NCBI RefSeq assembly: GCF_900105765.1
Contig: NZ_FNTX01000001.1
Span: 372,001 to 436,000 of the forward strand
DNA: 64,000 bases
Source of the DNA: Ruania alba
Lineage (GTDB): Bacteria; Actinomycetota; Actinomycetes; Actinomycetales; Beutenbergiaceae
Direction: 5' to 3'
Part shown: piece after piece, positions 58,688-60,884 of the stretch
Position numbering within the stretch: position 1 is the stretch's first letter
Layout of the letters: each line of letters opens with the position of its first letter
Notes under the pieces: generated by a model
The model's database searches: none
What the model was told of the DNA's origin: nothing
What the model saw: only the letters and a program-made list of their open reading frames with translations
Translations under genes and position numbers: made by a program

Positions 58688-59455
58688 ATGGCCCAGCGAT
58701 TCAATCCTCCTCCCGGCTGGCAGGTGCCCGCCGGCTTCGCACCGACCCAAGGGTGGCAGCCGGACCCGTCCTGGCCGCCGGCCCCTCCCGGGTGGAACTT
58801 CTGGGTGGATGACGCGGTAGGGACGTATGGTGCCGCCAGCCAACCCGGCTACGGCGCTCAGCAGCCGGGATACGGCGAGCAGCAGCCCGGCTACGGGGGC
58901 GCGAGCCAGCCGAGCGGGTACGGTCCGTCGAACCCGGGGGCTGCCGGACCGGGTCACCCGGGCATGCACAACGCCGGGACGCCCGGCGCGCACGGCGGGG
59001 GCAACGCCTATGACCCGTCCCCGACCACGGGGCAGGCCAACGCCTACGACCCGTCCCCGAACACGGGGCAGCCCGGTGCCTACGACCCCTCGATGGCGCC
59101 CGGGGGCGCGAGCATGGCGCTCGTCGAGAAGCAGGTCAAGGACGGTCGACGGAACATCTTGATCGGTCTCGGGGTCGCAGCGGTGGCGCTGGTGGTCTGG
59201 ATCGTCTCGTACAGCGCGGCCGGCCCGGGGGATACCTACCTCCGGCCCTGGTACTTCGTCCTCTTCGGTGTGATCTTCGGGATCCGCGGGATCGTGGAGT
59301 ACGTGAAGGCGAAGAAGCAGCTCGCCCAGGCCCAAGCCGCCGCCGGTGGTGGCCTGTACGGCACCGGGATGGGTGGCTCGGACATCCCCGGCTCCGGTAC
59401 CGGAGACTCGCCTTTCGGCGGCCCCAAGGGCAAGGGCGACGACCTATACCGCTGA
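58688..59455 (+). CDS. Membrane protein with PGYG and AYDPS repeats
   Basis: 255 residues from ATG 58688; TAGAGT (58676-58681) places the transcript start exactly on the ATG, so leaderless. The N-terminus has two or three GW-type repeats (PPPGWQVPAGFAPTQGW, PPAPPGWNFWVDD), then QPGYG repeats and three AYDPS repeats. Two membrane helices follow (NILIGLGVAAVALVVWIVSY and YFVLFGVIFGIRGIVEYV). The C-terminus is Gly-rich. Function unknown; Gly/Pro/Tyr-rich tails of this kind are common in actinobacterial membrane proteins. Confidence 0.8.
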   Translation: MAQRFNPPPGWQVPAGFAPTQGWQPDPSWPPAPPGWNFWVDDAVGTYGAASQPGYGAQQPGYGEQQPGYGGASQPSGYGPSNPGAAGPGHPGMHNAGTPGAHGGGNAYDPSPTTGQANAYDPSPNTGQPGAYDPSMAPGGASMALVEKQVKDGRRNILIGLGVAAVALVVWIVSYSAAGPGDTYLRPWYFVLFGVIFGIRGIVEYVKAKKQLAQAQAAAGGGLYGTGMGGSDIPGSGTGDSPFGGPKGKGDDLYR

Positions 59456-59469
59456 CGGATCCGGCAATC

Positions 59470-59607
59470 TCTCGACTCGCTAGGCGATGTTGTCTTGACT
59501 GAGGGGCCGATAGAGTCTCGACTGAGTCGACAGCAAGTTCTCGGCTGAGTGGCATGTATTTTGTCGACTGACTAGTCCACAATTTCTCGACTAGACGGTC
59601 GACAGAC
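59470..59607 (+). repeat. Six tandem units with an exact 23-bp period
   Basis: Units start at 59470, 59493, 59516, 59539, 59562 and 59585. Their first eight bases are TCTCGACT, TCTTGACT, TCTCGACT, TCTCGGCT, TGTCGACT and TCTCGACT; the following 15 bases vary, though GAGT often comes next. A seventh, degenerate unit (TCTAGAAT) at 59608 contains the -10 box. The array fills almost the whole 166-base gap ahead of the ATPase gene. Confidence 0.85.
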
Positions 59608-59615
59608 TCTAGAAT
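59587..59615 (+). promoter_or_regulatory. Promoter of the AAA_14 ATPase gene inside the repeat array
   Basis: TCGACT (59587-59592, in the last full unit) and TAGAAT (59610-59615) are 17 bp apart, like -35 and -10 boxes. The transcript would start at 59622, the A of the ATG, so it would be leaderless. Confidence 0.7.
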
Positions 59616-59621
59616 GGCCCC

Positions 59622-60884
59622 ATGAGTGCTGATTCGGGAGCGTACCTGCCGCGTGTGGTGGACGCGGAGCTGGAAGGCCTCCTGCGAATCTCGGGTGCCG
59701 TTCTCATCGAGGGGCCGAAGGCCTGCGGCAAGACGGAGACCGGGCGGCGGGTGGCCTCGAGTGAGGTGCGCGTGGACGTCGATCCTCAGGTCCCGGCAAT
59801 GATGGCCGTCGATCCCGCGTTGCTTCTGAGTGGCGGCACGCCGCGACTTATCGACGAGTGGCAGGGGCAGCCGCAGCTCTGGAATGTCGTGCGACGAGCA
59901 GTGGACGACCGCCAGGGCAAGGGGCAGTTCATCCTCACCGGGTCCGCGCAGCCGGTTGAGGATGCGCGTTTGCACTCAGGGGCCGGTCGGATCGCACGGC
60001 TGCGAATGCGGCCGATGACGCTCTGGGAATCGGGTCAATCGAGCGGTGAAGTGAGTCTCTGGTCGCTGCTCGCAGGGGAGCGCCCGTCGACGGTCGTCAC
60101 CGAGCCTGACCTGCCCGGGATCATCGACGCCCTCGTTCGCGGTGGATGGCCGAGCGTCCAGGGTGCGCCCCTCGCCGATGCCCGCACCCAGATCCAGCAC
60201 TATGTCGACCTTCTCGCCGAGGTGGACATCAGCGCTGTTTCCAATCGTCGACGGGACCCGAACAGAGTCCGCCAGCTGCTGAGCTCGTTGGCGCGAAGCT
60301 CGGCGACCGAGTCGAGCATTTCCACCTTGGCCACGGACGTGGGAGAGGGCACTGGCTCGTTTGCATGGGAGACCATCGTCGACTATCTCGACGCGCTCTC
60401 CCGGCTCATGGTGGTCGAGGATGCGCCGGCCTGGTCGCTGCATCTGCGGTCCAGCGCGACCCTGCGCAAGGCGCCCAAGCGGCACTTCGTCGACCCCTCC
60501 CTGGCCGTCGCCGCCCTGGGTGCTGGGCCGGAGGAGCTGATGCGCGATCTCAACTTTACCGGGCAGTTGTTCGAGTCGCTGGCAGTCAGAGATCTGCGCG
60601 TCTACGGTCAGCGCCACGGAGTCAGAGTGTTCCATGCACGAGACTCCTCCGGCCGTGAAGCAGACGCAGTCCTGCAGCGGCGTGACGGCGCATGGATGGC
60701 CGTCGAGATCAAGCTCGGGCCAGGTGCCGTCGACCACGCAGCGAGTTCTCTGCTGCGCTTTGCCGAGAACGTGGACGAGCGAACAGGCGAGTGCCTGGGG
60801 TTGCTCGTCGTCACGGGGTGGGGCCTCGCCCACCGTCGCGACGACGGTGTGAATGTCGTGCCTCTGACCGCCCTGCGGGACTGA
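59622..60884 (+). CDS. AAA_14/DUF4143 ATPase
   Basis: 420 residues from ATG 59622. Walker A is LIEGPKACGKT (residues 28-38), Walker B RLIDEWQ (75-81), then QFILTGSAQP. The C-terminal DUF4143 part has FESLAVRDLRVYG and a PD-(D/E)xK-like pattern, GREADAVLQR then MAVEIKLG. Proteins of this family are widespread, mostly uncharacterised, and often have the feel of accessory or defence-linked genes. It has no obvious partner here. Controlled by a leaderless promoter within a repeat array. Confidence 0.88.
   Translation: MSADSGAYLPRVVDAELEGLLRISGAVLIEGPKACGKTETGRRVASSEVRVDVDPQVPAMMAVDPALLLSGGTPRLIDEWQGQPQLWNVVRRAVDDRQGKGQFILTGSAQPVEDARLHSGAGRIARLRMRPMTLWESGQSSGEVSLWSLLAGERPSTVVTEPDLPGIIDALVRGGWPSVQGAPLADARTQIQHYVDLLAEVDISAVSNRRRDPNRVRQLLSSLARSSATESSISTLATDVGEGTGSFAWETIVDYLDALSRLMVVEDAPAWSLHLRSSATLRKAPKRHFVDPSLAVAALGAGPEELMRDLNFTGQLFESLAVRDLRVYGQRHGVRVFHARDSSGREADAVLQRRDGAWMAVEIKLGPGAVDHAASSLLRFAENVDERTGECLGLLVVTGWGLAHRRDDGVNVVPLTALRD

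Follow-up and report, generated by a model that had tools for sequence, protein, structure and literature searches.

How is an array of evenly spaced direct repeats used when it runs straight into the start of a gene? This question is raised by a 64,000-nucleotide stretch of the Ruania alba genome (contig NZ_FNTX01000001.1, hereafter the window), in which six units with a period of 23 bp precede a gene for an ATPase of the AAA_14/DUF4143 type. On the evidence of sequence comparison, the array probably offers several binding sites to the very ATPase encoded downstream, which would thereby control its own transcription.

The array ahead of the ATPase gene

The six units occupy positions 59470..59607 on the forward strand. 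Their leading octamers stand where the original prediction had placed them, with TCTCGACT at 59470, 59516 and 59585, TCTTGACT at 59493, TCTCGGCT at 59539 and TGTCGACT at 59562, and the period is 23 bp; any two of the six octamers agree, on average, at 7.0 of 8 positions. Exactly one 23-bp step past the sixth octamer follows TCTAGAAT, a seventh, degenerate unit on the same strand (59608..59615) that includes the -10-like hexamer TAGAAT (59610-59615), a putative promoter element. It is preceded by the -35-like hexamer TCGACT (59587-59592) and a 17-bp spacer. Six bases separate TAGAAT from the ATG at 59622, and leaderless transcription of the ATPase gene is plausible from this layout. The 15-bp spacers between the octamers had been described as poorly conserved. 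This is true of the early spacers, in which a GTCSACA block is weak, but not of the last two, in which the block is clear (59575 and 59598). GTCSACA falls at the place of the second conserved block of the unit common to the family.

When the 64 kb were scanned with periods of 15-40, the identity level of the six octamers was reached at the array alone, and it was not reached in any of five block-shuffled copies. The array window had 30 of 46 matches for a lag of 23 and 31 for a lag of 46. Lag 23 was best in 9 of 976 control windows from the same sequence, none of which had 28 or more of 46 matches at this lag. Genome-wide, unit pairs with no more than one mismatch were confined to the array (four overlapping matches). 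Allowing two mismatches added two matches in the array and four outside it, and matches at three mismatches were chance-like. This uniqueness in the 64 kb, together with the recurrence before homologues described below, bears out the earlier view of the array as operator-like rather than accidental and as running into the promoter.

Two of the four outside matches at two mismatches are copies of a promoter-like element, TTGACT-N17-TAGACT, which occurs as three near-identical 31-mers with the spacing of the window array (G000:C1:526026, G000:C2:343304 and G000:C1:2084482). We considered these copies as rRNA promoters and rejected the idea, as Rfam gave no match in locus L124; the copy in L124 precedes an open reading frame that appears HNH-like by eye. 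Upstream of the array, the open reading frame 58688-59455 contains a 36-bp direct repeat (59002-59073, copies 92% identical) encoding a repeated NAYDPSP motif.

Recurrence and geometry of the array in the gene family

The gene has a patchy distribution, with homologues in 21 of 39 relatives. Within the order at least 52 of 149 genomes have a homologue, and within the phylum at least 80 of 296, both counts being lower bounds since few candidates were scored per genome. The expansion is strongly uneven: five genomes (G006, G128, G044, G141 and G154) have twelve or thirteen matches of the gene each, and many relatives have none.

If the array belongs to the gene, regions upstream of other AAA_14/DUF4143 genes should show a period of 20-25 bp, as the original prediction had proposed to check. 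We matched the sequence before each homologue start against itself at lags of 10-60 and took the best lag. In a first set of 114 loci, 106 of them usable, lag 23 was best at 91, lag 46 at four and another lag at 11. Among 79 usable of 80 loci on genome contigs the respective numbers were 69, four and six; these records are named as Spirochaetes, Clostridia, Bacteroidetes, Gemmatimonadetes, Chloroflexi, Proteobacteria, Nitrospirales, Elusimicrobia, Actinobacteria and others, and include three loci from archaeal metagenome-assembled genomes, of which L178 is a weak case of an array. Lag 23 was best on five of seven viral contigs and lag 46 on two, and a held-out set of 69 loci gave 47 for lag 23, seven for lag 46 and 15 for other lags. 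The pooled, de-duplicated set comprised 267 of 277 loci, ten being left out for a missing N-terminus, fewer than 100 nt of upstream sequence or duplication; two viral contigs with a shared upstream region (L127 and L132) are separate in the viral count and a single entry in the pool. Lag 23 was best in 211 of the 267 regions and lag 46 in 17, together 228, and lag 22 or 44 in seven. The mean score was 31.3 at lag 23, compared with 17.7 at lags other than 23 and 46. The period therefore recurs before most homologues, and the outcome named in the original prediction as refuting it, upstream regions of homologues devoid of periodic repeats, did not arise.

In 219 loci the called arrays have between 2 and 13 units, with a median of 4, and the median distance from their end to the expected start is 11 nt. 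A TANNNT hexamer starts most commonly at unit position 17 (55 of 173 loci), partly since some units themselves include TANNNT. Although the unit sequence varies between loci, an unsupervised register of 196 of 201 loci gave a common frame, in which positions 7-13 tend towards C/T-T-G-C-A-A-A, positions 14-21 are variable and T22 occurs in 68%. At L053, at least twelve 23-bp units precede the homologue. Eleven are exact copies of one another and the remaining one is almost identical to them, which we take as a sign of recent tandem expansion; perfect or near-perfect copies also occur at L145, L186 and L212.

Such copies would suit an accidental tandem duplication of promoter parts, in which the 23 bp are simply a -35 hexamer plus a 17-bp spacer. 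The window octamer does resemble -35 and -10 hexamers at this spacing, and TTGACT-N17-TAGACT exists elsewhere in the genome. Still, we regard this origin as extremely improbable: the 23-bp period is also found in Bacteroidota, where promoters are laid out differently, and in units that bear no resemblance to -35 or -10 hexamers, e.g. CTGCAAACACCCGG, and the duplication would leave the covariation with the protein unexplained.

The period is not the same throughout the larger family. Among 35 distinct loci nearer to the distant member L275, lag 23 or 46 was best in 14, lag 22 or 44 in ten and another lag in 11. Clear 22-bp arrays are present at L313, L064, L065, L023 and L288, and also, with two units, at L319, the fourth paralogue in the window's own genome. 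Seven of the 35 loci (L316, L320, L323, L324, L326, L341 and L286) have, in place of the 23-bp direct array, an inverted repeat in the 90 nt before the start that matches at 9-10 of 10 positions, above all 20 shuffles. Part of the larger family thus shares a promoter-proximal repeat, in more than one geometry.

In the genus, gene and array stand together beside the same downstream gene in two of eight genomes (G000 and G004). Neither is present in G001, G002 and G005, which have a short gap there, and G003 and G007 have a different gene at that place. In G006 the ATPase gene is missing, yet the last 300 bases before the downstream gene (L291) hold about three array-like units (TCTCGACT, TCTCGACT and TCGCGACT) spaced by 23 bp, an orphan array that is apparently a relic. 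Gene and array are gained or lost as one at this locus. Presence and absence as a block and the relic array could point to a selfish homing-like element, composed of an ATPase-nuclease and an array serving as its recognition or cutting site; homologues about 50% identical across phyla and conserved nuclease-type residues would agree with this. However, the gaps without the gene in G001, G002 and G005 also lack the array, so the array is no pre-existing insertion target, and we consider such an element unlikely.

Covariation between the unit and the protein

The ATPase gene (59622..60884, forward strand) encodes 420 amino acids. AAA_14 (PF13173) matches residues 26-136 with 110.8 bits (curated cut-off 28.1) and DUF4143 (PF13635) residues 201-365 with 37.8 bits (curated cut-off 27); the corresponding COG is presumably COG1373. 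The PADLOC model PDLC04790 (PDC-S01) covers residues 7-418 (E 2.6e-63). The original description of the family as one of unknown biology needs qualifying, as the protein matches PDC-S01, a candidate defence system that still awaits validation.

The AlphaFold2 model of the protein is confident (predicted local distance difference test 92.2, predicted template-modelling (TM) score 0.92). An ATPase core is followed by helices 213-225, 233-241 and 249-261, strand 265-268, a low-confidence loop, strand 286-289 and an alpha/beta part that carries a PD-(D/E)XK-like residue pattern. We read helices 213-261 and the two strands as a winged helix with its wing. On the forward strand, residues 248-253, where the predicted recognition helix (249-261) begins, are encoded at 60363..60380, the predicted wing loop (269-285) at 60426..60476, the PD-(D/E)XK-like core (335-364, with E346, D348, E362 and K364) at 60624..60713, and GPKACGKT (31-38), which we take to be the P-loop, at 59712..59735. 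In 54 sequences G31, G36 and K37 of the latter as well as D78, E79, E346, E362 and K364 are invariant, and D348 is conserved in at least 90%. The acidic residue and ExK expected of a PD-(D/E)XK active site are thus present and suggest nuclease activity; the name of the fold follows PMC12988326 and the motif spacing. No sequence relative of the ATPase was found among PDB chains at E 0.01. By structure, the top E-value in Foldseek belonged to Orc1/Cdc6 (PDB 2qby, 4.2e-06), and the largest query TM-score among the best 50 matches listed to a Pyrococcus Walker ATPase (PDB 2qen, 0.42). Both Orc1/Cdc6 and the archaeal Walker ATPases join an AAA+-type ATPase to a winged helix, as is predicted here, but the global similarity of 2qby to the window protein is weak (query TM-score 0.27).

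With units in register and proteins aligned, we calculated the mutual information with average-product correction between each residue and each unit position. A first run on 176 of 196 loci, after exclusion by hand of 19 loci with misplaced or weak arrays and of proteins shorter than 330 residues, was led by the pairs (residue-unit position) 249-16, 280-9, 250-19, 248-19, 250-18, 250-17, 249-15 and 342-8. Adding 64 held-out loci, with 219 kept, gave an observed maximum of 16.0 compared with a shuffle maximum of 8.3 under coarser clusters. The leading pairs were the same without hand selection (255 loci and 9108 pairs; 229 loci with a lag-23 filter). In the 255 loci, z was 15.4 for 249-16, 11.5 for 280-9, 10.7 for 250-19 and 9.2 for 250-17, followed by 342-10, 249-15 and 248-19 (8.0 each), 342-8 (7.5) and 250-18 (7.1); the maximum z in 200 shuffles of the arrays inside protein clusters was 7.1. 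In the model, residues 248-250, the covarying partners of unit positions 15-20, sit where the recognition helix begins, residue 280, which covaries with position 9, in the wing loop, and residue 342, which covaries with positions 8 and 10, in a loop of the nuclease-like part.

Mean base fractions were 0.91 for G16 with R249 (71 loci), 0.85 for G16 with K249 (27), 0.54 for C16 with D249 (18), 0.81 for G9 with R280 (79), 0.97 for A19 with P250 (16) and 0.87 for C19 with N250 (17). Contacts of R249 with G16 and of R280 with G9 would be chemically sensible. The window protein, a member of the training set, agrees with these tables: it has A248, W249, E250 and T280, and its units have no G16, no G9 but G19.

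The rules were fixed before the 69 new loci were scored; 50 could be scored, the other 19 having no called array, too short a protein or a lag-23 score below 25. A majority G16 was found in 26 of 27 loci with R or K at residue 249 and in 4 of 23 with other residues (Fisher p 5e-9). Among proteins less than 50% identical to any training protein the counts were 9 of 9 and 2 of 13. T or S at residue 250 went with A18 (0.65 in 17 loci, compared with 0.27 in 33), R280 with G9 (0.49 in 36, compared with 0.15 in 14), P250 with A19 (0.83 in two loci, compared with 0.17) and E or D250 with C18 (0.48 in five, compared with 0.28). The main rule, R or K249 with G16, is thus confirmed at the level of sequence, and the finer rules are confirmed in part.

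Several observations weigh against the reading of the array as the target of the ATPase. Another best lag was found in 32 of the 267 pooled loci, and of seven plasmid homologues only four had lag 23, those of Thermus, Allochromatium and Subdoligranulum being without a 23-bp array. Residue 342 covaries as well although it lies outside the winged helix, and pair 282-11 stayed under the shuffle maximum. In a stricter contrast of 84 disjoint sister pairs, 211-15 came out on top (t 7.7), with 250-19 in second and 249-15 in fourth place, while neither 249-16 nor 280-9 was among the top 25 pairs listed; relatedness therefore still adds noise to the covariation. In the held-out loci, C19 with N250 reached 0.44 in four loci (compared with 0.15), down from 0.87, E or D250 did not separate G19 (0.60 compared with 0.52), A or D248 with G19 was weak (0.59 compared with 0.45), and the rule for K248 had zero cases.

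Because the letters of the unit covary with the recognition helix and wing of the ATPase, it is highly likely that the ATPase itself binds and reads the array. The original prediction had named either the ATPase or a small silencer as the binder, and the covariation favours the former and disfavours the latter. Control of the ATPase by a different DNA-binding protein at the array, whether a global regulator or a small silencer, is very unlikely: helix-turn-helix genes do lie near some plasmid copies, but no such neighbour adjoins the window gene, the unit letters follow the ATPase's own recognition helix, and paralogues within a genome have different arrays. We also considered whether same-genome paralogues are selected to have orthogonal arrays, but this found no support, as at equal protein identity within-genome pairs were no less alike than between-genome pairs. 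Core similarity reached at least 0.7 in 2 of 122 within-genome array pairs, and arrays seem to track protein divergence.

Probable autoregulation and a candidate defence system

The position of the array makes autoregulation its likely role. In the mechanism we propose, every 23-bp unit would be read by the winged helix of the DUF4143 part, with the beginning of the recognition helix contacting unit positions of about 15-20 and wing residue 280 contacting position 9. The ATPase would load on several units ahead of and across the -35/-10 region and thereby control its own transcription. A period of 23 bp amounts to roughly 2.2 turns of B-DNA, so that the units, instead of sharing one face of the DNA, wind around the helix. 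The sign of control would most likely be repression, so that little of the ATPase, with its PD-(D/E)XK nuclease-like part, would be present until a trigger, e.g. phage infection, lifts the repression. Repression, cooperativity, release by infection and a role in defence are what we infer for the system, and a protein filament may form along the array, as the original prediction had suggested from the constant phase.

Direct repeats beside the gene of their binder are also known from plasmids. Iteron-type Rep proteins contain winged helices, bind direct repeats of about 20 bp beside their own gene and are often autoregulated; Rep proteins assemble on iterons, and ParR and TubR on direct repeats. 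The array could accordingly be an iteron- or centromere-like nucleation site for replication or partition, with transcription control as a by-product. Direct repeats of about 22-23 bp directly ahead of their binder's gene, the top Foldseek E-value for Orc1/Cdc6 and the number of 2 to 13 units would fit. We nevertheless consider this improbable. The AAA_14/DUF4143 genes are mostly solitary and chromosomal, with up to 13 matches per genome and a patchy occurrence (21 of 39 relatives), no partner gene stands beside the ATPase gene in the window, and in some distant relatives an inverted repeat takes the place of the array. No Rep family was among the Pfam matches of the ATPase and no origin was found, although origin features were not searched for.

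The PDC candidates were reportedly named in the Payne 2024 preprint. Our literature search, from which that preprint was absent, returned no description of an array before this family, and absence from print is not established by it. According to PMC12988326, PDC-S01, an ATPase fused to PD-(D/E)XK, ranks fourth by frequency among prokaryotic defences, with 9986 archaeal and 29 494 bacterial instances, most such defence candidates awaiting validation; according to PMC13356809, no other individual locus is as frequent in rumen genomes. The window protein shares the domain make-up described in the former, whereas the upstream array present here is not mentioned in the parts of the two articles that we consulted. 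The nearest regulator described, as far as the sources seen go, is RptR, the repressor of a phage defence island, which according to PMC12255303 binds several direct repeats overlapping its own promoter. Direct repeats overlapping the promoter are common to both systems, and self-repression, part of the RptR system, would be the counterpart proposed here. RptR differs in being a small separate regulator with three 9-bp repeats and the palindrome TAGCTA, whereas here the binder would be the ATPase-nuclease, with a period of 23 and a hypervariable sequence.

More tentatively, the array could possibly serve as the parking and sensing scaffold of a self-recognizing immune ATPase-nuclease. Assembly on the private array would silence the gene and keep the nuclease inactive, disturbance by an invader would free it, and helix and array would diversify together into a hypervariable, code-like family in bacteria and archaea.

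The PDC-S01 family is among the most numerous candidate defence systems, and the array is the usual companion DNA element found for it here. It is useful for placing start codons and for spotting relics of the gene. With a readable protein-DNA code, part of the DNA target of this family may be predictable from sequence, and the pairs of helix and array would represent a natural library of recognition specificities.
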